Below, piece by piece: positions 4,165 to 63,814 of a DNA stretch of 64,000 bases. This DNA comes from an uncultured Veillonellaceae bacterium. GTDB taxonomy: Bacteria > Bacillota > Negativicutes > Selenomonadales > Selenomonadaceae. The stretch is taken from the NCBI GenBank assembly GCA_945949525.1, contig CAMFES010000001.1:35323-99322 (forward strand), read 5' to 3'. Positions within the stretch are counted from its first letter, which is position 1; each line of letters opens with the position of its first letter. Under the pieces are notes generated by a model. The model saw nothing but the letters and a program-made list of their open reading frames with translations, had not been told where the DNA came from and made no database searches. Made by a program: the position numbers and the translations under genes.

Positions 4165-4195
4165 TATTAATATCCCTGGCAGGCAGTGATGAAAA

Positions 4196-4225
4196 ACGGC
4201 GGTGTGATGCACCGCTGTTTTTTTT
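4196..4225 (+). terminator. Rho-independent terminator
   Basis: ACGGCGGTG and CACCGCTGT form a 9-bp stem around TGATG, followed by eight Ts. It separates the nitroreductase gene from the com genes. The remaining ~160 bases up to comEA carry no convincing gene. Confidence 0.85.
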
Positions 4226-4388
4226 GCCTAAAAAAATCAGCTTTTGATGCCTGCAAACCTGTGAATCGTAGAACTTTGGCGAAGGTTCGCTGTTTTTATA
4301 TTATATATAATATGGGGAATTTTTGGGCAGTTGAAAGAGCGGCCTGTCAATGCTATATTGTTATCAGATTGAGTAACGGGGTGATAGG

Positions 4389-5058: not shown

Positions 5059-6834
5059 GTGGAAAGAGTGGGTCAGCATCCCAAGGAATTTCTGGTTTTT
5101 CTGCTGGCAGTGCTGTGCGCAGGGATTTTTCTGGGGCATTGCTGGCAGGGCGGAGCTGAGTACGCGCCATGTATCTGGGCGGGGGTCTGGGCGTGTCTGT
5201 GCCTGGCGGCACTGGCTGTTCGCCGCGGGCATGGGGTTAGCTGGCTGGCCGTGGGGGCATGTATTTTCTTGCTGGGGCTGGGCCGCTACTATGCTGTGGC
5301 TGTTCTAGCTGAGGACGATATTGGCAGGATGGCTGGACAGAGGGTGAAGCTGGAGGGGCGGCTCACCGGTGCGCCGGAGATAACTGTAGATGAGGCAGGC
5401 GGGCTGCATGTACGCTATGAGGTGGAGTGTGAAAAGCTGGCAGGCAGGGGCAGCATCAGGGGAAGGCTGATAGTTTACGGCAATGAAGGTTCCCTGCACA
5501 GCAGGGATATAATGGCGCAGGTACCCGTGAAAAGGCGGGACGGGGAGGAAAGGGCCGACTGGGAGATGGCTGACAGGGCTATTCTGGGGCGCTCCGGTGA
5601 CAGACTTTGTGTGTCGGGAACGGTGAAGGCACTGCGTGACTATGGCAATCCGGGCAGGACGAACAGGGAGATGTCACTGTTCGCCAGGGGAATCCACGGA
5701 CAGATGATGGCCGACAAGTACAGCCTGCAGCTGCTGCCGGAGGAGGGGGACTGGCTGGCGCGGCTGTCGGAGAGGATTCGCAGTGCCTACAGGGAGTACA
5801 TGGAGCGTGCCATGCCGAAGCAGGATGCGGCAGCTGTTTTTGCCATGCTGTTCGGCGGCTATCAGGGCATCAGGCCGGAGCTTTTGGAAGCCTTTACCAT
5901 AACGGGAATTGTGCATATTTTGTCGGTTTCCGGTTCCCATATTACATTGATGGCCGGGACGGCAGGCATCCTGGGACGGATGTTGCACCTTCCTGACAAA
6001 GTGACGGCGGGAATGGGCGTTGTGACCATTGTGTTTTACGGGGTGCTGGCAGGTGCCATACCGCCTGTTGTCAGGTCAGCCCTGATGGGGATTTTGACGC
6101 TGCTGGCCCTTACGCTGGGCAGGGAGAAGGATGCCCGCCACCTTTTGAGCATTGTGGCACTGGGGCTTTTGCTGTACTCGCCGCCGCTTCTGTATGATAT
6201 CAGCTTCCAGCTGTCCTTTGGTGCAACGGCAGGCCTTTTGTATATTGCCCCTGTACTAAGGGGCTGGCTGCGAAAAAGACTGCCGGTATTTGCAGCTGAC
6301 AGCCTGGCGGTGACTATGGGGGCACAGATGTCGGTATTGCCGCTTCTGGCCTGGTATTTTAATGCGGTTTCCATTAGCTCCCTGCTGGCAAACCTGATTA
6401 TTACGCCGGTGGTGGAGTGGATTATTGTCATCGGCCTGCTGGCAGGAATAGCGGGAAGCCTGCTGCCGCTGGCAGGACATCTGGTATTCATGGGGGCCGC
6501 CCTGCTTTTGGGGCTGGTGTATGAGCTGTCGCGGCTTACGGCATCCCTGCCCTTCAGCCAGGTATATGTACCGGCACCGGAGCTTTTTGGCTGTACAGTG
6601 TACTATGGGGGGCTGGGCTGGCTGATTGCACCGGCAGGAACAAGGGCAGCACTGGCAGAGAGGGTGAAGGGGAGCGCGCTTTTGACGAGATGTGCCCTTT
6701 TGACCGGATTTTTGGAAAGGCGCCGAGAGTTCCGGCCTGTCCTCACTGTGATGGTTGCGATACTGCTGCTGAGTGCCGGATATGGCAGCTTCTCCGCGGC
6801 TGACAGGCTGCAGGTGCATTTCATAGATACCTAG
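5059..6834 (+). CDS. comEC: ComEC/Rec2 N-terminal part, interrupted by the prophage
   Basis: 591 codons covering the N-terminal hydrophobic region, the DUF4131 OB-like domain (about 50-215) and the multi-helix competence channel domain (about 235-500), including ILSVSGSHITLMAG. ComEC is the inner-membrane channel that imports single-stranded DNA during transformation. The frame ends in VHFIDT-stop. The native motif is VHFID-VGQGDA, and the missing VGQGDA begins at 63038 beyond the prophage, so the metallo-beta-lactamase domain is separated from this part. The stop codon is supplied by phage DNA. Start is GTG 5059 or GTG 5068. Uptake activity is expected to be lost in the lysogen. Confidence 0.93.
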   Translation: MERVGQHPKEFLVFLLAVLCAGIFLGHCWQGGAEYAPCIWAGVWACLCLAALAVRRGHGVSWLAVGACIFLLGLGRYYAVAVLAEDDIGRMAGQRVKLEGRLTGAPEITVDEAGGLHVRYEVECEKLAGRGSIRGRLIVYGNEGSLHSRDIMAQVPVKRRDGEERADWEMADRAILGRSGDRLCVSGTVKALRDYGNPGRTNREMSLFARGIHGQMMADKYSLQLLPEEGDWLARLSERIRSAYREYMERAMPKQDAAAVFAMLFGGYQGIRPELLEAFTITGIVHILSVSGSHITLMAGTAGILGRMLHLPDKVTAGMGVVTIVFYGVLAGAIPPVVRSALMGILTLLALTLGREKDARHLLSIVALGLLLYSPPLLYDISFQLSFGATAGLLYIAPVLRGWLRKRLPVFAADSLAVTMGAQMSVLPLLAWYFNAVSISSLLANLIITPVVEWIIVIGLLAGIAGSLLPLAGHLVFMGAALLLGLVYELSRLTASLPFSQVYVPAPELFGCTVYYGGLGWLIAPAGTRAALAERVKGSALLTRCALLTGFLERRREFRPVLTVMVAILLLSAGYGSFSAADRLQVHFIDT

Positions 6835-8169: not shown

Positions 8170-8997
8170 ATGTCAAAAGCATCGGACGCATTTGAGAATG
8201 AGATAGTTAATATGGTTAATTTCCATCGTGGCGAAACACTCCCATCGGTATTGCCAAGATGGCTTATAAACGAAGGTGTAAGACCTGGAGCAAGAATCCT
8301 TTATGCTGAAGGAATAGGAAGTAAGGATAAGAATAATAAGACGGATGTGGTTGTTTACCTCGAAGATTCAGAACCGATAAAGATTTCTGCGAAACTGATG
8401 AATGCAGACTATTTCGGAAACTGGTATGGGCACAAACGTTTTTTGGCTGAATTTGGAGAAGCTGCTTTTTATCGTATGACAGTAGCATCGACTGCTTTTG
8501 CTAATAGTTGGGCGAGAACTGCTACAGCTCCCTATGTCGGCGTTAGCATTTGCTTTGGACGAAGAACCGGAAGGACCGGGCAGGATTTTACGGATATTTT
8601 TACAACTGAAGATATTCTTACGGTTGCCCGCGGATATGGCAATGGTATTTCTACGGCAAACTGTATGTATATTTCTGATTCTAGCGCGAGAGATATCCCA
8701 GGACTTATCAGAAATATTGAGGCCATCACGGTAGCCTCTGTTAATCAGGCAACAGAGAACTTTAAGGTAGCACATAGACCTATAAATCCGATGACAGAGG
8801 GTACTAACAGAGGGAAAAATGTTTATACTCGTTTTCAGCCGTACAGAAGGTTGTCGAGCAGAACAATCATTACTGATCCGCAGGAGTTATTCCGCTTAGG
8901 TGAGTTTGTAACTGTAGAACCTACGAGTTTGAACCATAATCACATTCTTGATGATTTAGAGGCAAATTATAATATCATCGTTCCTAGAAAGCGCTAA
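8170..8997 (+). CDS. Type II restriction endonuclease, HaeIII-like (candidate)
   Basis: 275 residues, 69 bases upstream of a HaeIII-type methyltransferase on the same strand. The likely catalytic core is Asp59 (KTDVVVY) with a following SAK strand (Ser73-Ala-Lys75), a D...SxK variant of PD-(D/E)xK. The gene order and the partner methyltransferase argue for cleavage of GGCC-type sites. ATG 8170 follows AAAGGCGGAG. The pair is AT-rich relative to its surroundings and lies in the cargo zone near attL, consistent with recent gain. Direct recognition of the family is moderate; much of the call rests on the neighbour. Confidence 0.7.
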   Translation: MSKASDAFENEIVNMVNFHRGETLPSVLPRWLINEGVRPGARILYAEGIGSKDKNNKTDVVVYLEDSEPIKISAKLMNADYFGNWYGHKRFLAEFGEAAFYRMTVASTAFANSWARTATAPYVGVSICFGRRTGRTGQDFTDIFTTEDILTVARGYGNGISTANCMYISDSSARDIPGLIRNIEAITVASVNQATENFKVAHRPINPMTEGTNRGKNVYTRFQPYRRLSSRTIITDPQELFRLGEFVTVEPTSLNHNHILDDLEANYNIIVPRKR

Positions 8998-14378: not shown

Positions 14379-14607
14379 CCAAGTCAATTGGCTCCTGACT
14401 GGAGCACCTAGCTCTAAAAATAAATTTCGTTGTCTAAGTGTACATAGGACGGCGGAGTCACATAGCGGTTTCCCATTATGCCAAAAGGCTAGGTGGGAAA
14501 TGCTACAGGCTTCCCGTTATTTCCTATGTGCATTTTTAGTTAGGAAGCCTTTAGCTGCTACCGGCTATGTCCTCTCGTCCGTCCTGTGCTCTGGACGGAA
14601 AGAGAGG
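14379..14607 (+). ncRNA. Structured leader RNA upstream of the sigma-like gene (candidate)
   Basis: About 230 bases without a gene but with dense pairing potential. GCCAA pairs with TTGGC near 14382. ACATAGGA (14442-14449) pairs with TCCTATGT (14522-14529) and encloses a small GAC/GTC hairpin and a longer arm. That arm pairs TAGC and TTTCCC (14463-14474) with GGGAAA and GCTA (14495-14505). The last hairpin pairs CCTCTC (14571-14576) and CCGTCC (14579-14584) with GGACGG (14593-14598) and GAGAGG (14602-14607). The GAGAGG strand is the ribosome-binding site of the next gene, so translation of that gene may be controlled. No known RNA family is recognised. Confidence 0.5.
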
Positions 14608-14614
14608 AAAAGCT

Positions 14615-15100
14615 ATGACAAAGTACATCTACATTAATGCGGCAAAGGAAAAGTTCTATGTGACCGAAGAGGAGTATAAGGCATTTTACAGAGAGGTAGA
14701 TGCCAAACGTAAGCGTGAGCAGTATCATCACCGCTGCGTATGCCCAAAGGAATTCATCTGGAAATGTGATGGCGACTGTGACATCTGTGAATTTCACCGC
14801 AGCGGGGATATGTACTCCCTGGACTATAAGAATGATGATGGTGAGGGCCTCATGGATAAGATGGCTGAAGACAAGGTAATGGAAGACCTTATAGCTGATT
14901 CTATGCTCTTAGAATCTTTAATACAGAAGCTATGTGAGCTAGACCCTGATGGAGCAAAGATAATTGAGATTTGGAAGGAAAATCCCAAGGCATCAGACCG
15001 TGAAATTGCCCGTCAGCTTGGGCGCAAGCAGCGGACTTTTTCTAATCATATGAAAAAGATACGAGAAATTTTAAAATCTGTTGCTCAAACCGAAGATTAA
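14615..15100 (+). CDS. Sigma-70 region 4-like phage regulator
   Basis: 161 residues from ATG 14615. The N-terminal half has a Cys cluster (CVCPKEFIWKCDGDCDIC) that may bind zinc. The C-terminal half resembles sigma region 4: ASDREIARQLGRKQRTFSNHMKKI is a helix-turn-helix. Such proteins head the early operon in many clostridial phages and are thought to be transcription regulators. The ribosome-binding site is sequestered in the hairpin described upstream. Confidence 0.7.
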   Translation: MTKYIYINAAKEKFYVTEEEYKAFYREVDAKRKREQYHHRCVCPKEFIWKCDGDCDICEFHRSGDMYSLDYKNDDGEGLMDKMAEDKVMEDLIADSMLLESLIQKLCELDPDGAKIIEIWKENPKASDREIARQLGRKQRTFSNHMKKIREILKSVAQTED

Positions 15101-15139
15101 TCTCCAGTGGTATGTGTAAGGCAAATGAGCCTGCAGATT
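15099..15139 (+). repeat. CTCCAGTGGTATGT element, copy 2 of 3
   Basis: It contains ATCTCCAGTGGTATGT (15100-15115), identical to the loop motif of the 19387-19558 leader. AATCT (15099-15103) and AGATT (15135-15139) can close a stem, with an inner AGGC-AAATGA-GCCT hairpin. It lies directly upstream of a small gene. Confidence 0.5.
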
Positions 15140-17360: not shown

Positions 17361-17421
17361 GATAGTGAGCGGGCGGCAGGGGGAAACCTTTGCCGCTTTG
17401 CTCTTATATGGAGGGCTAGAG

Positions 17422-19377
17422 ATGAAAAGTGTCTCAATCGATATTGAGTCGTTTTCCGATGTTGATTTGAATAAATGCGGTGTCTACAAATACTGCGAAT
17501 CAGATAATTTTGAAATTCTGCTATTTGCCTACTCGGTAGATAACACTGATGTCTGTGTCATAGATATCGCCCAAGGTGAGAAAATCCCAGATGATGTACT
17601 AAAGGCGTTAGCAGACACATTTGTTACGAAGTGGGCATTTAACAGCCAGTTTGAGCGGGTGGCACTGTCGGCATACCTTCATAAGCATTACCCGGGTATG
17701 CTGAAAGACAGCTTTCTAAATCCCCACAATTGGAAGTGCTCCATGACATGGTGTGCTTATATGGGACTTCCTATGTCTTTGGCAGGTGCTGGTGCGGTAC
17801 TTGGCTTGGAGCAGCAGAAGTTGACGGAAGGCAAGGAACTTATTCGTTATTTCTGTGTACCATGCAAGCCGACTAAAACCAACGGTGGCAGGGAAAGAAA
17901 CCGCCCGGAGCATGATACTGAGAAGTGGACTGCCTTCAAAAAATATAACAAGCGTGATGTAGAGGTGGAGATGGCGATACAGAAAAAACTCACCAATTTT
18001 CCTGTGCCGGACGCTGTGTGGGAAGAGTTCTGGCTAGATCAGGATATTAACGACCGCGGCATTGAGGTAGATATGACACTTGCCAGCAATGCCATAGAGC
18101 TGGACAAGCTATCAAGAGAAACTCTTATGGATGAGATTAAGACTGTTACAGGTCTGGATAACCCCAATAGTGTATTGCAGCTGAAGGAATGGTTACAGTC
18201 ACAGGGAGTGGAATCTGAGAGCCTTGATAAGAAGGCTATTGCTGCCATGCTTCCGGCAGCACCACCTCTGGTACAGAAGGTTCTTAGGATAAGGCAGAAG
18301 CTGGCAAAGTCATCTGTAAAGAAGTATCAGGCAATGGAGAATGCTGTGTGTAAAGACAGCAGGGCAAGAGGTATGTTCAGATTCTATGGGGCATCGAGAA
18401 CAGGGCGGTTCTCAGGAAAATTGGTGCAGCTTCAAAATCTCCCGCAGAACCACATTGCTGATTTGGCTGAGGCGAGGGCTTTGGTGAAATCGGGAATGTT
18501 TGATGTGATGGGGATGCTCTATGATGACATCCCCGACACCTTATCTCAGCTTATCCGCACAGCCTTTGTGCCAAGGTCTGGGTATAAGTTTGTGGTGGCA
18601 GACTTCAGTGCAATTGAGGCCCGTGTGCTTGCTTACCTTGCAGGGGAGCAGTGGGTGCTGGATACCTTTGCAAGAGGAGAGGATATCTACTGTGCTACAG
18701 CAAGCAGAATGTTTCATTGTAATGTTGTGAAGAATGGCGAGAATGGAGAGCTTCGCCAGAAGGGGAAGCAGGCTACTTTATCCTGTGGTTATGGTGGCGG
18801 GGTCGGTGCTCTTGTTGCCATGGGAGCCTTGGAATCTGGTATGACAGAGGATGAGCTGCAGCCACTAGTGGATGCCTGGCGAAAAGCTAACCCACACATC
18901 GTGAATTTCTGGTGGGAAGTAGACAGGGCGGCCAAAGAGGCCGTTGTTGATAGAACAGTCACATCCGCCCAAGGAATACGGTTTATCTGCCAAAGCGGTA
19001 TGCTCTTCATTGAACTTCCAAGCGGCAGAAGGCTCTCCTATGTTAAGCCCAAGATGGGAGAGAACCGTTTCGGGACCGAGGCTGTTACCTATGAAGGGAC
19101 AAATGGGACTACCAAGAAGTGGGATCGCCTAGAGACCTTCGGTGGCAAGCTGGTGGAAAACATTACTCAGGCGGTAGCAAGGGATATTCTGATGTTTGCT
19201 ATCGGAACACTTAAGGATTACAGGATTGTAGCCCATGTGCATGATGAAGTTATTATCGAATGCCCAGAGGATGTGGGCGTAGATACAATCTGCCAGCTTA
19301 TGGCAAAGACACCTTCCTGGGCGGAAGGCCTGCAGCTTAAGGCTGAAGGATACGAAGGAAAATTTTATAAAAAATAA
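17422..19377 (+). CDS. Family A DNA polymerase (phage PolI-like)
   Basis: 651 residues from ATG 17422 with GGAGGGCTAGAG upstream. The N-terminal half is a 3'-5' exonuclease (SIDIESFSDVDL motif I, KWAFNSQFERVAL motif II, YNKRDVEVEMAI motif III). The C-terminal half is the polymerase, with RFYGASRTGRFSGKLVQLQN, motif A VVADFSAIEARVLAYLAGE, the O-helix region RQKGKQATLSCGYGGG and motif C IVAHVHDEVIIE. All catalytic acids appear intact. It is the replicative polymerase of the phage. Confidence 0.95.
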   Translation: MKSVSIDIESFSDVDLNKCGVYKYCESDNFEILLFAYSVDNTDVCVIDIAQGEKIPDDVLKALADTFVTKWAFNSQFERVALSAYLHKHYPGMLKDSFLNPHNWKCSMTWCAYMGLPMSLAGAGAVLGLEQQKLTEGKELIRYFCVPCKPTKTNGGRERNRPEHDTEKWTAFKKYNKRDVEVEMAIQKKLTNFPVPDAVWEEFWLDQDINDRGIEVDMTLASNAIELDKLSRETLMDEIKTVTGLDNPNSVLQLKEWLQSQGVESESLDKKAIAAMLPAAPPLVQKVLRIRQKLAKSSVKKYQAMENAVCKDSRARGMFRFYGASRTGRFSGKLVQLQNLPQNHIADLAEARALVKSGMFDVMGMLYDDIPDTLSQLIRTAFVPRSGYKFVVADFSAIEARVLAYLAGEQWVLDTFARGEDIYCATASRMFHCNVVKNGENGELRQKGKQATLSCGYGGGVGALVAMGALESGMTEDELQPLVDAWRKANPHIVNFWWEVDRAAKEAVVDRTVTSAQGIRFICQSGMLFIELPSGRRLSYVKPKMGENRFGTEAVTYEGTNGTTKKWDRLETFGGKLVENITQAVARDILMFAIGTLKDYRIVAHVHDEVIIECPEDVGVDTICQLMAKTPSWAEGLQLKAEGYEGKFYKK

Positions 19378-19386
19378 TGCTCAAAC

Positions 19387-19558
19387 TCGGCATTTATCTC
19401 CAGTGGTATGTAGGAAGATAAATGCCGATGGCGCTTATCTTCAAAAATTTTGATAAGTGCCAGTTCTAAAAATCGGGCTGTCTGTCCTTGAACTAATGAA
19501 GGATAAGACGCTCCGTGTAAGGCGCTTATCTTATCAAATTCAGGATAGGCGCTTTTTT
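19387..19558 (+). promoter_or_regulatory. Attenuator-like structured leader upstream of rha (element copy 1)
   Basis: A 13-bp perfect stem (19387-19399 with 19416-19428) carries the loop CCAGTGGTATGTAGGA. Then GGCGCTTATC (19430-19439) pairs with GATAAGTGCC (19452-19461), followed by CAGTTCTAAAAATCG. Downstream, GATAAGACGC (19502-19511) can pair with GGCGCTTATC (19521-19530). The same strand can instead pair with GATAGGCGC (19544-19552), which is followed by six Ts, a terminator. Mutually exclusive antiterminator and terminator pairings are the hallmark of attenuators and riboswitches. No known class is recognised. Confidence 0.6.
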
Positions 19559-19581
19559 AGTGCCGGAAAGCGAGGTTTTTT

Positions 19582-20271
19582 ATGAAACCATTAGTGCCAA
19601 TGGACGATTATGGCATATTCGCAGACAGCCATGATATCGCCCGAGTTGACAGCCTATATGTGGCAAGAGCATTTGAGAAGCAGCATAAGAATGTACTGCG
19701 AGACATTGCAAGAATCACTGACCCAAAATCTGGACTCAGTGAAGAATTTAACCGGCTCAATTTTGAGCTGGTTAATTACAAGGATGCCAAAGGCGAAAAA
19801 CGGCCTTGTTACTACCTTACCCGTGATGGATTTACCATGCTGACAATGGGATACACCGGTAAGAAGGCAATGAAGTTCAAGGAAAAGTACATCAGACGCT
19901 TCAACGAGATGGAAGAGCAGATCAAGAGTCTGGTCAAAGCACGTCAGCAGTTTCCAAAGCTCACTAGGATGGTCAAGTCCATACATGACAATCCGAAGCC
20001 GTACCACTATTCCAATGAGTGTGATCTCTTGAACCGTTTAGTGCTGGGGATGAGTGCCAAGCAGTTCAGGGAGAGGCATGGAATCGCAAAGGGCGAGTCT
20101 ATCAGACCATACCTTACAGCTGCACAGATTGCAGCTCTTGATTATCTGCAGGATGTGGATGTTGGTCTTCTGGTTGGTGTACCAGACTTCAATCAGCGCA
20201 AGATGTTGCTGCAGTGGAGTCTGATGAATTACAGAGGCGAGTGCGAGAAACTGTGCAATCCAAGTAACTGA
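19582..20271 (+). CDS. Rha family phage regulator
   Basis: 229 residues. The N-terminal pRha domain (about 18-105) has the typical RVDSLYVARAFEKQHKNVLRDI and YYLTRDGFTMLTMGYTG segments. The rest is a helical domain with YHYSNECDLLNRLVLGMSAKQF. Rha proteins are phage regulators that interfere with lysogenic growth in some hosts. The gene lies immediately behind the attenuator-like leader, so its expression may be set by that structure. Confidence 0.85.
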   Translation: MKPLVPMDDYGIFADSHDIARVDSLYVARAFEKQHKNVLRDIARITDPKSGLSEEFNRLNFELVNYKDAKGEKRPCYYLTRDGFTMLTMGYTGKKAMKFKEKYIRRFNEMEEQIKSLVKARQQFPKLTRMVKSIHDNPKPYHYSNECDLLNRLVLGMSAKQFRERHGIAKGESIRPYLTAAQIAALDYLQDVDVGLLVGVPDFNQRKMLLQWSLMNYRGECEKLCNPSN

Positions 20272-20345
20272 GTCCAATTTTGGGCTGAGTAAATTACGGG
20301 GGTGGCTGGACTGGTCACCCCTATGAATCCAAGGAGGAATTAACC

Positions 20346-20561
20346 ATGTTTTACATTAAGGAACGCATCAATGATGCAATGGAAGTAACTGTTGAGATTA
20401 ACGATGAGAATGTTTTCTGCACCTGCCCTGAGTGCGGTGATGAGGTGCAGGTTGACCTTGAAGCCCTAAGTAAGGATGAGCCGTTGGACCTTTTCGGTAT
20501 GGCGGTGTGCTGCGCTGAGTGCTCAAGGAAGATGCTCAGAAAGGGTGAGCGGTTTGAATAA
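20346..20561 (+). CDS. Small zinc-ribbon-like protein
   Basis: 71 residues from ATG 20346 (AAGGAGG site). A CTCPECG pair and a CCAEC pair about 40 residues apart form a probable zinc ribbon, and the linker is acidic (LEALSKDEPLD). It is common as a small protein in phage replication regions and of unknown role. The end overlaps the next gene. Confidence 0.6.
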   Translation: MFYIKERINDAMEVTVEINDENVFCTCPECGDEVQVDLEALSKDEPLDLFGMAVCCAECSRKMLRKGERFE

Positions 20562-20886
20562 GGCGTATATCAGCAGCCCTCTTCGCGGCAATGAAGAGGA
20601 GAACATGTTCAGGGCAAGATGGTACTCAAGGTTTGCAGCAGATGAGGGCGTAATTCCGGTTACGCCCCATATCTACTTTACACAGTTCCTGCGTGACCAT
20701 ATCCCGGAAGAGAGGGAGCTGGCAATGAGGATGAATAAGGTGCTGCTTCTGGAGTGCTCCGAAGTTTGGGTGTTTCAGGGCTATGGTATTTCTTCTGGAA
20801 TGCAGCAGGAAATTGAATGGGCGAAAGAAGCAGGTATTAAAATCAGGTATTTTGATGAGAGGATGGTGGAAGTATGCGGGGACTAG
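20554..20886 (+). CDS. DUF4406/nucleoside 2-deoxyribosyltransferase-like protein
   Basis: About 110 residues from TTG 20554 (GTG 20545 is also possible). The sequence opens AYISSPLRGNEEEN and continues with a helix-strand pattern ending EVWVFQGYGISSGMQQEIEWAKEAGI. These are the nucleotide-pocket loops of the DUF4406 / 2-deoxyribosyltransferase fold. Whether it acts on phage or host nucleotides is unknown. It overlaps both neighbours, so it is part of the replication operon. Confidence 0.75.
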   Translation: MNKAYISSPLRGNEEENMFRARWYSRFAADEGVIPVTPHIYFTQFLRDHIPEERELAMRMNKVLLLECSEVWVFQGYGISSGMQQEIEWAKEAGIKIRYFDERMVEVCGD

Positions 20887-59093: not shown

Positions 59094-59125
59094 CCGAGTT
59101 GAAAAACTCGGTTTATTTTTTTGCT
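59094..59125 (+). terminator. Terminator
   Basis: CCGAGTT and AACTCGG (59094-59111) with a GAAA tetraloop, followed by TTTATTTTTTT. Confidence 0.9.
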
Positions 59126-59141
59126 CAAATATAATATTAAC

Positions 59142-59193
59142 CTCCAGTGATACAAAGAGACAGTTCTAAAAATCGTTAATGCTGTCCTTGTAT
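59142..59193 (+). repeat. CTCCAGTG-TTCTAAAAATCG element, copy 3 of 3
   Basis: CTCCAGTGATA, CAGTTCTAAAAATCG and CTGTCCTTG appear in the same order as in the 19387-19558 leader. ATACAA (59150-59155) pairs with TTGTAT (59188-59193), and GACAG (59159-59163) with CTGTC (59182-59186), leaving TTCTAAAAATCG in the loop. It lies directly upstream of a regulator gene. Confidence 0.5.
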
Positions 59194-59210
59194 TTTTAGA
59201 GGTGATAAAA

Positions 59211-59609
59211 ATGACGGAGTTTGAGAAACGTAGGATTGATGAATATCGCAGGCAGGGGCTTGGGTATATAAAGATCTCCCAGGAACTGAATATACCTGTG
59301 GGTACTATCAAAAGCTATTGCAGGAGAAATAAGGCAAGCAGTCCACAGATTGATGACAAGCATTACTGCAGATACTGTGGCAAGGCGGTGGAACAGACTA
59401 CGGGGCGGAAGGAGAAGAAGTTCTGTTCAGATGCCTGCCGTATGAAATGGTGGAATTCAAACAGAGATAAGGTTGACCATAGAGCACTTCGAAAGCGTAA
59501 CTGCCTTTTCTGTGGATCTGAATTTACAGCTTACAGCACATCAGCCAAGAAGTATTGTAGCCACAGCTGCTATATCGCTTTCAGGTTTGGGGGTGGCAGC
59601 CGTGAATAA
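59211..59609 (+). CDS. HTH and zinc-ribbon regulator next to the recombinases
   Basis: 132 residues from ATG 59211 (AGAGGTGA site). The N-terminal sigma-like helix-turn-helix reads EYRRQGLGYIKISQELN then IPVGTIKSYCRR. Two zinc clusters follow (HYCRYCGKAVEQ...CSDACR and NCLFCGSEF...CSHSC). Similar genes stand next to tandem serine recombinases in clostridial mobile elements. A role in controlling excision is inferred. Confidence 0.7.
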   Translation: MTEFEKRRIDEYRRQGLGYIKISQELNIPVGTIKSYCRRNKASSPQIDDKHYCRYCGKAVEQTTGRKEKKFCSDACRMKWWNSNRDKVDHRALRKRNCLFCGSEFTAYSTSAKKYCSHSCYIAFRFGGGSRE

Positions 59610-63037: not shown

Positions 63038-63814
63038 GTGGGGCAGGGGGATGCGGCTCTGGTGATTACGCCTCACGGCCATGCCTTTATGGTGGATGCA
63101 GGCGGCGTCCGGGAGGGGGGCTATGATATCGGCAGGATGGTGGATGTGCCTTATCTGCTGCATTACGGCGTCAGACAGCTGGATTATATATTTTTGACAC
63201 ATGCCCACGATGACCATGCGGCAGGCGTCCGTGGTATTCTGGGCAGGATACCTGTCAGGGCGGTGATGATTGGCCATGAGGGAGCCGGTGAGTACCTGAA
63301 GGCCTTTGGACGGGGGGAGGCCGGCAGGACGGAAAAGCTGCTGGCGCCTCTGAAGGAAAATACCTATATGGAGCTGGACGGTGTAAGGATAGAGGTGTTG
63401 TATTCCCCTGAGCGCAGGGAGGTAATGCAGGGAAGCGTGGAGGCCACAGGCAATGAATATTCAAATCTCATCAGGGTGAGCTATGGAGATGCCAGCTTTT
63501 TGTTTACAGGGGATTTGGTTGCGGCTCAGGAGGCAGAGCTTTTGCGGCGGGGAACGCCGCTTCGGAGTACGGTGCTGAAGGTGGGGCATCATGGCAGCCG
63601 CACATCCAGCTCGGAAGGCTTTTTGCAGGCGGTAAAGCCGGGATGGGCGGTAATTTCTTGCGGGTATGGCAACAGCTTCGGGCATCCCCACAAGGAAATT
63701 GTTCAGCGGATTGCGGATGTGACCGGGGCGGAAATTTTGCGGACGGACGAGAAGGGGGCAGTTGTGTTCAGGACGGATGGCAAAAGCATGTCAGTGGAAT
63801 GCTACAGGGACTGA
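63038..63814 (+). CDS. comEC: ComEC C-terminal part (metallo-beta-lactamase domain), separated by the prophage
   Basis: 258 codons continuing comEC from the VGQGDA motif. Metallo-beta-lactamase motifs are intact: THAHDDHAAG, LFTGDL and VGHHGSRTSSSE. In ComEC this domain is thought to degrade the non-imported strand. There is no ribosome-binding site before the GTG, and a phage-derived stop lies just upstream in frame, so it is probably not translated in the lysogen. No decay is visible, which argues for recent insertion or regular excision. Confidence 0.92.
   Translation: MGQGDAALVITPHGHAFMVDAGGVREGGYDIGRMVDVPYLLHYGVRQLDYIFLTHAHDDHAAGVRGILGRIPVRAVMIGHEGAGEYLKAFGRGEAGRTEKLLAPLKENTYMELDGVRIEVLYSPERREVMQGSVEATGNEYSNLIRVSYGDASFLFTGDLVAAQEAELLRRGTPLRSTVLKVGHHGSRTSSSEGFLQAVKPGWAVISCGYGNSFGHPHKEIVQRIADVTGAEILRTDEKGAVVFRTDGKSMSVECYRD

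Follow-up and report, generated by a model that had tools for sequence, protein, structure and literature searches.

Genes and Hairpins at the polA-rha Boundary

The window, a 64,000-nucleotide stretch of DNA to which all coordinates refer, carries a prophage in which a polA-type DNA polymerase gene is separated from rha by an intergenic region at 19378-19581. The features used in the analysis are as follows.

14567-15100 (likely start 14618), + strand: sigma-region-4-like gene, the proposed reader of the elements (PHROG, TIGR02937, Pfam, PDB profile, AF2)
15081-15122, + strand: site 1, type A element; block 1 TTGCTCAA, spacer of 12 nt, block 2 TCTCCAGTGG
17365-19377, + strand: polA-type DNA polymerase (Pfam DNA_pol_A, 4.9e-27; PHROG 17, 4e-138), the end of the upstream operon
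19377-19418, + strand: site 2, type A element; block 1 ATGCTCAA (19377-19384), spacer (19385-19396), block 2 TCTCCAGTGG (19397-19406); putative promoter
19388-19427, + strand: hairpin H1, CGGCATTTATCT-N16-AGATAAATGCCG, -17.9 kcal/mol, with element A nested inside; no T-run in the window
19429-19462, + strand: hairpin H2, GGCGCTTATC ... GATAAGTGCC, 11-bp stem, -15.4 kcal/mol
19463-19503, + strand: site 2, type B element; block 1 GTTCTAAA (19463-19470), spacer (19471-19482), block 2 TGTCCTT (19483-19489); putative promoter of a second subtype
19500-19532, + strand: antiterminator-type hairpin, sharing GGCGCTTATC with H3
19519-19558, + strand: hairpin H3 (19519-19555) and six Ts (19553-19558), -16.4 kcal/mol, intrinsic-terminator-like, between element B and rha
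19582-20271, + strand: rha (Pfam Phage_pRha, 2.9e-36)
59121-59162, + strand: site 3, type A element, directly behind a terminator U-run
59163-59202, + strand: site 3, type B element, preceding an HTH/zinc-finger gene (59211-59609) and serine recombinases

The intergenic leader is strongly structured, folding to -76.2 kcal/mol versus -49.2 kcal/mol for shuffled sequences (z = -6.6). No sigma-70-like promoters were found in 18500-20700. Rfam searches of the whole window returned no match at gathering score, and the 19387-19558 stretch gave chance-level matches only, at E up to 10. A 40-codon frame with a GTG start (19458-19581) covers both element B and H3, and its end overlaps rha at an ATGA; it probably arises by chance, and ATGA-type overlaps of this sort also occur in L007, L148, and L157.

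In 10 of 10 phages, H1 is kept behind polA, where the hairpin is made up of the type-A spacer, block 2, and the bases after it. The stem sequences differ among these phages, and the folds beat block-2-preserving shuffles with z values of -2.2 to -6.9. At site 1, a fold clearly better than shuffles was obtained in one of eight phages. A T-run lies 3' of H1 in G012, L040, and L198. Because a transcript begun at element A would not contain the 5' arm of H1, this hairpin could act only on polA read-through. In L107-L110, the HTH/zinc-finger gene has its Shine-Dalgarno sequence inside a perfect hairpin behind polA, AAACACCTCCTGCCGTGGCTAGTAAGCAGGAGGTGTTT.

H2 corresponds to the terminator that lies ahead of element B in relatives, but it has no T-run and looks like a terminator relic. 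The T-run-bearing copy in the window is H3, which follows element B, whereas in G012, G015, L039, and L040 a terminator with a T-run precedes it. In these four, H3 with its T-run is absent behind element B, and it was seen in no relative read. The best reading of H3 is thus a terminator that was duplicated or displaced, so far seen in this genome only.

Terminator and Antiterminator Pairing ahead of rha

A preliminary description had interpreted 19387-19558, bounds that miss the start of element A at 19377, as the leader of the Rha regulator with the architecture of an attenuator or riboswitch. Its structural observations are reproduced here. GGCGCTTATC has exact + strand occurrences at 19430 and 19521, the upstream 13-bp stem with a 16-base loop is H1, and the GGCGCTTATC strand can pair either with 19500-19513 through 19521-19532 or, as 19519-19532, with 19542-19555 followed by six Ts. 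The rha leader thus contains both an intrinsic terminator (H3 and T6) and a mutually exclusive antiterminator. The antiterminator pairing of 19500-19513 (GGATAAGACGC) with 19521-19532 yields -13.2 kcal/mol, a value that 9 of 1000 sequences with a shuffled upstream part also attained, and the terminator pairing yields -16.4 kcal/mol. For a leader starting near 19495, the terminator state is at -18.8 kcal/mol and the antiterminator state, which forms first, at -14.6 kcal/mol. This modeled folding of a B-started leader would fit attenuation and also simple partial termination.

These structures could constitute an rha attenuator in which transcripts from A or B choose between H3 and the antiterminator through a ligand, a protein, or a translating ribosome. 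The exclusive hairpins of similar energy, the early formation of the antiterminator, the six Ts, the rarity of such pairing among shuffles, and the strong structure of the leader agree with such a device. However, H3 with its T-run is confined to this genome, and in relatives the interval from B to the next gene lacks a terminator. Some alternative pairing is also automatic, given that H2 and H3 share sequence, and Rfam offers no match. We regard an rha attenuator as the explanation of the region as unlikely.

A riboswitch is not supported, as there is neither an Rfam match nor conservation of the switch. No conserved, covarying sensor or switch was found in the homologues read, in which H3 is missing behind B. 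What survives of the proposed architecture is the terminator/antiterminator pair between B and rha. The locus resembles attenuators and riboswitches in having a terminator with a competing upstream hairpin, and differs from them in having no conserved aptamer and no Rfam family, with the switch absent in relatives. The region does adjoin rha, yet G012, L039, and L040 carry this A-hairpin-B array behind polA with a gene other than rha next; the elements and hairpins are therefore not rha-specific.

A Two-Block Element at Three Fixed Positions

The segment 19377-19503 consists of two tandem copies of a two-block element. DNA searches of the window and its relatives define type A as NTGCTCAA-N12-NCTCCAGTGR and type B as GTNCTNAA-N12-TGTCC. 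The window has three copies of type A (15081, 19377, and 59121; chance, 0.03) and, at up to two mismatches, two of type B (19463 and 59163; chance, 0.14). Site 1 overlaps the 3' end of the sigma-like gene and precedes the replication operon. The protein encoded at 59211-59609, behind site 3, belongs to PHROG 2308 (function unknown) and opens the recombinase operon in most phages read. Hybrid elements in L128, L130, L191, and L224 combine an A-like block 1 with a B-like block 2, or carry TGTCCAGTGG, and link the two types.

Phages of the Ca. Heliusvirales type from Negativicutes and Clostridia carry the element. In an annotated phage collection, carriers of the sigma-like gene were labeled Ca. 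Heliusvirales wherever the taxonomy line was read. As judged by eye, the element adjoins the 3' end of the sigma-region-4-like gene at 29 of 31 genome loci and in 7 of 9 phage records. It lies behind polA at 20 of the 32 polA ends read and is absent within 137 nt at the other 12, so that site 2 is not universal. The third location is ahead of the operon encoding the HTH/zinc-finger protein and serine recombinase. In each of three complete phage records, the type-A pattern matches exactly three times; the matches are confined to the + strand and occupy these three locations, and a reversed control pattern has none. Streptococcus phage Javan105 (L243) probably carries one more version of the system, with two sites: a weak relative of the sigma-like protein (E 2e-5) is followed by a terminator and TTTGCCTGTGATGTG, and nearly the same stretch recurs behind polA (regions 4195-4300 and 8788-8900).

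The layout is that expected of promoters, with two blocks at fixed spacing at operon starts: the 12-nt spacer is invariant at 38 of 38 sites from 19 phages, and there are three sites per phage. A T-rich run lies within 20 nt upstream of the element at 13 of 18 copies of site 1, 10 of 18 of site 2, and 13 of 14 of site 3, versus 266 of 3000 random positions (9%). Host-type sigma-70 promoters are not in excess over chance near the elements.

Several other identities were rejected. A sigma-28-like promoter does not account for A, as its blocks fail to match and differ among phages. An attP site does not account for B at site 3, the element being present at sites 1 and 2 too. The copies keep fixed positions, which argues against a REP-like repeat or mobile insertion.

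A Phage Protein with a Sigma-4-Type Domain

The gene overlapped by site 1 encodes a member of PHROG 13787 (unknown function), a family matched by 24 of 24 members of the sigma-like set. TIGR02937 (sigma70-ECF) is matched by 16 of the 24, with a best value of 6e-12, and Pfam Sigma70_r4_2 by six; no member matches a region-2 family. The family profile finds region 4 of FliA in the PDB at 1.2e-5. An AlphaFold (AF2) model built with 24 sequences has a mean pLDDT of 83 and a confident C-terminal HTH (pLDDT about 92-95), with an N-terminus that forms a beta-hairpin and a long helix and has no sigma-2 fold. Most Foldseek matches are to sigma factors or further proteins of HTH type, and they are weak (E 0.04 or above). 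Family scans, the PDB profile search, and the model hence all place sigma region 4 in the phage protein, whereas neither the scans of the 24 members nor the AF2 model contains region 2. Because region 2 is lacking as a family or a fold and the Foldseek matches are weak, the protein is named sigma-like rather than an ECF sigma factor. In the window genome, no sigma subtype cognate to type B was recognized.

Block 1 Changes with the Recognition Helix

Copies of the element were compared within the 19 phages having both site 1 and site 2; where a phage carries tandem A and B, the copy of the same type was used for the Mantel and permutation tests. Within phages, block 1 is 97% identical (61% when permuted), block 2 is 92% identical (60%), and the spacer is 40% identical (31%). 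This within-phage match of the blocks was reached by none of 20,000 permutations, and between phages the copies differ. The spacers have diverged and the blocks have changed jointly; the sites are therefore old enough for spacer drift. In a partial Mantel test corrected for polA distance, pairs of phages with more divergent HTH parts tend to have more divergent copies of block 1 (r = 0.38, P = 2e-4). A weaker correlation with the HTH is seen for the spacer as well (r 0.29), and shared ancestry is therefore not fully removed.

A closely related pair provides a natural helix swap. L197 (NatCom_11393) and L226 (NatCom_21982) have polA genes that are 93% identical, and their sigma-like proteins agree at 132 of 138 positions and then at only 18 of 36 over the last 37 columns, which contain the recognition helix. 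Block 1 is TCGGCCAA in L197 and CTGTTCAA in L226 at sites 1, 2, and 3 alike; that is, it changed in step with the helix at all three sites. Block 2, CCTCCAGTGGGTAGT, is unchanged. At site 2, the two differ at 9 of 160 bases, all of them toward the 5' end, within or next to block 1. The change at site 1 could have arrived with the gene in one exchange, but sites 2 and 3 are kilobases away, and the same exchange cannot explain the changes there. Comparative evidence of this kind indicates that the sequence of block 1 depends on the recognition helix. The phages supply naturally evolved, mutually distinct pairs of putative regulators and promoters, with a natural helix swap among them.

This dependence bears on two explanations at the RNA and peptide level. 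The element could act in RNA, through put- or nut-like antitermination or through Shine-Dalgarno sequestration by TCC ... GGA hairpins, as the conservation of H1 at site 2 and the frequent presence, about 11 nt downstream, of an RRGG able to pair with block 2 would allow. Most site-3 copies and many site-1 copies, however, immediately follow a terminator, a position unsuited to antitermination; 7 of 8 site-1 copies fold no better than shuffles; and the sequence tracks a DNA-binding helix. An RNA-level role is very unlikely. Conserved leader peptides, in MLKxxxxLQ and VLKxxxSVLL frames, are less credible still and close to negligible. The blocks can be read as short frames separated by 12 nt, or four codons, and the frame reaches the ATGA overlap in rha copies, but in-frame spacer stops in L111, L141, and L145 contradict this reading, most A copies have no preceding ribosome-binding site, and block 1 changes with the HTH.

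Proposed Mode of Action

A conserved two-block element that tracks a DNA-binding helix and occupies three places per phage points to a promoter, not a riboswitch. The elements are conserved, fixed in spacing and position, and covary with the protein. From these sequence patterns, we infer that they are the cognate promoters of the phage sigma-like factor and that this factor binds RNA polymerase. The polA-rha gap is probably an operon boundary composed of the promoter-like elements A and B and terminator-type hairpins, with the elements most likely read by the sigma-like protein. Most of the rha leader would then be accounted for by operon-boundary parts.

In the proposed mechanism, the C-terminal sigma-4-type helix would read block 1, on the -35-like side, whereas block 2, 12 nt on, would be recognized by the remainder of the protein or by its complex with RNA polymerase. 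One protein would thereby start the replication operon at site 1, the post-polA operon at site 2, and the recombinase operon at site 3. Behind polA, terminator-type hairpins would end or insulate the polA transcript, and the tandem elements would start the next transcription unit, with predicted start sites at about 19407-19413 (A) and 19493-19499 (B). In this phage, H3 would lower rha expression unless the antiterminator hairpin, which forms first, allows polymerase through, and the two may possibly form a small local on/off switch of rha.

The absence of region 2 also suits a different role, in which the element is the site of an activator, a Q-like antiterminator, or a repressor, with the sigma-4-like protein working alongside host sigma. 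The clear tracking of the HTH by block 1 would be expected for such a site as well. Opposed to it are the lack of host sigma-70-like promoters near the elements beyond chance, the two blocks at a -35/-10-like distance, and their non-palindromic form with constant spacing, which is unlike a repressor site. We consider this role unlikely. The difficulty for the promoter reading is that neither models nor scans contain sigma region 2, which leaves no account of how the protein would bind core polymerase or, having just a sigma-4-type domain, open the -10 DNA of its promoters.

A more general proposal is offered tentatively, at a little under even confidence: that throughout an order of abundant temperate gut phages, a phage-encoded sigma-like protein without a recognizable region 2 starts exactly three operons, that its code drifts through joint change of the helix and all three promoters, and that the middle promoter is nested in the terminator-type hairpin of the preceding operon. 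The assignment proposes a testable function for PHROG 13787 and points to where it would act in common phages of the human and rumen gut.

Relation to Known Systems

The promoter of E. coli sigma-E, an ECF (group IV) factor, is GGAACTT-N15-GTCTAA. Element B, written as GTACTT-N15-GTCCTA, is similar in block order and spacing, whereas the blocks of type A (GCTCAA/CTCCAGTGG) are unlike ECF sites. At the protein level, the likeness to ECF factors is the TIGR02937 similarity, but no sigma2 domain was detected.

Phage-encoded sigma factors are already known, and the system described here would add a new variant to this class. Xpf of Bacillus subtilis PBSX is a phage sigma-like positive control factor listed as a sigma2 plus sigma4 protein of group IV (PMC10141391). 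Both are prophage-encoded sigma-like regulators of phage operons; Xpf is listed with sigma2 and sigma4, whereas only a sigma4-type C-terminus was found here. In contrast to Xpf, the reader/target pair here is conserved, with a changing recognition code and three fixed places. SigO-RsoA, a split sigma of B. subtilis (PMC10141391), shows that sigma2 and sigma4 functions can be divided between two proteins, although no candidate partner is at hand here.

The nine genes shared by Candidatus Heliusviridae include polA, DUF2800, DUF2815, VRR-NUC, and SNF2 helicase (PMC9226167, Nat Commun 2022). The window prophage has DUF2800, DUF2815/Enc34 ssDNA-binding, polA, and VRR-NUC genes, with VRR_NUC just below the cutoff. 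By term search, the main text of that paper mentions no promoter or sigma factor, "sigma" appearing only as a reagent supplier, and a literature search whose coverage mostly excluded subscription journals yielded no description of the element or the sigma-like protein.

The open reading frame lists further indicate that a comEC-like gene is apparently split by the prophage: its N-terminal part (5059-6834) finishes with ...VHFIDT at 6834, and its metallo-beta-lactamase part (63038-63814) begins with MGQGDAALV at 63038.
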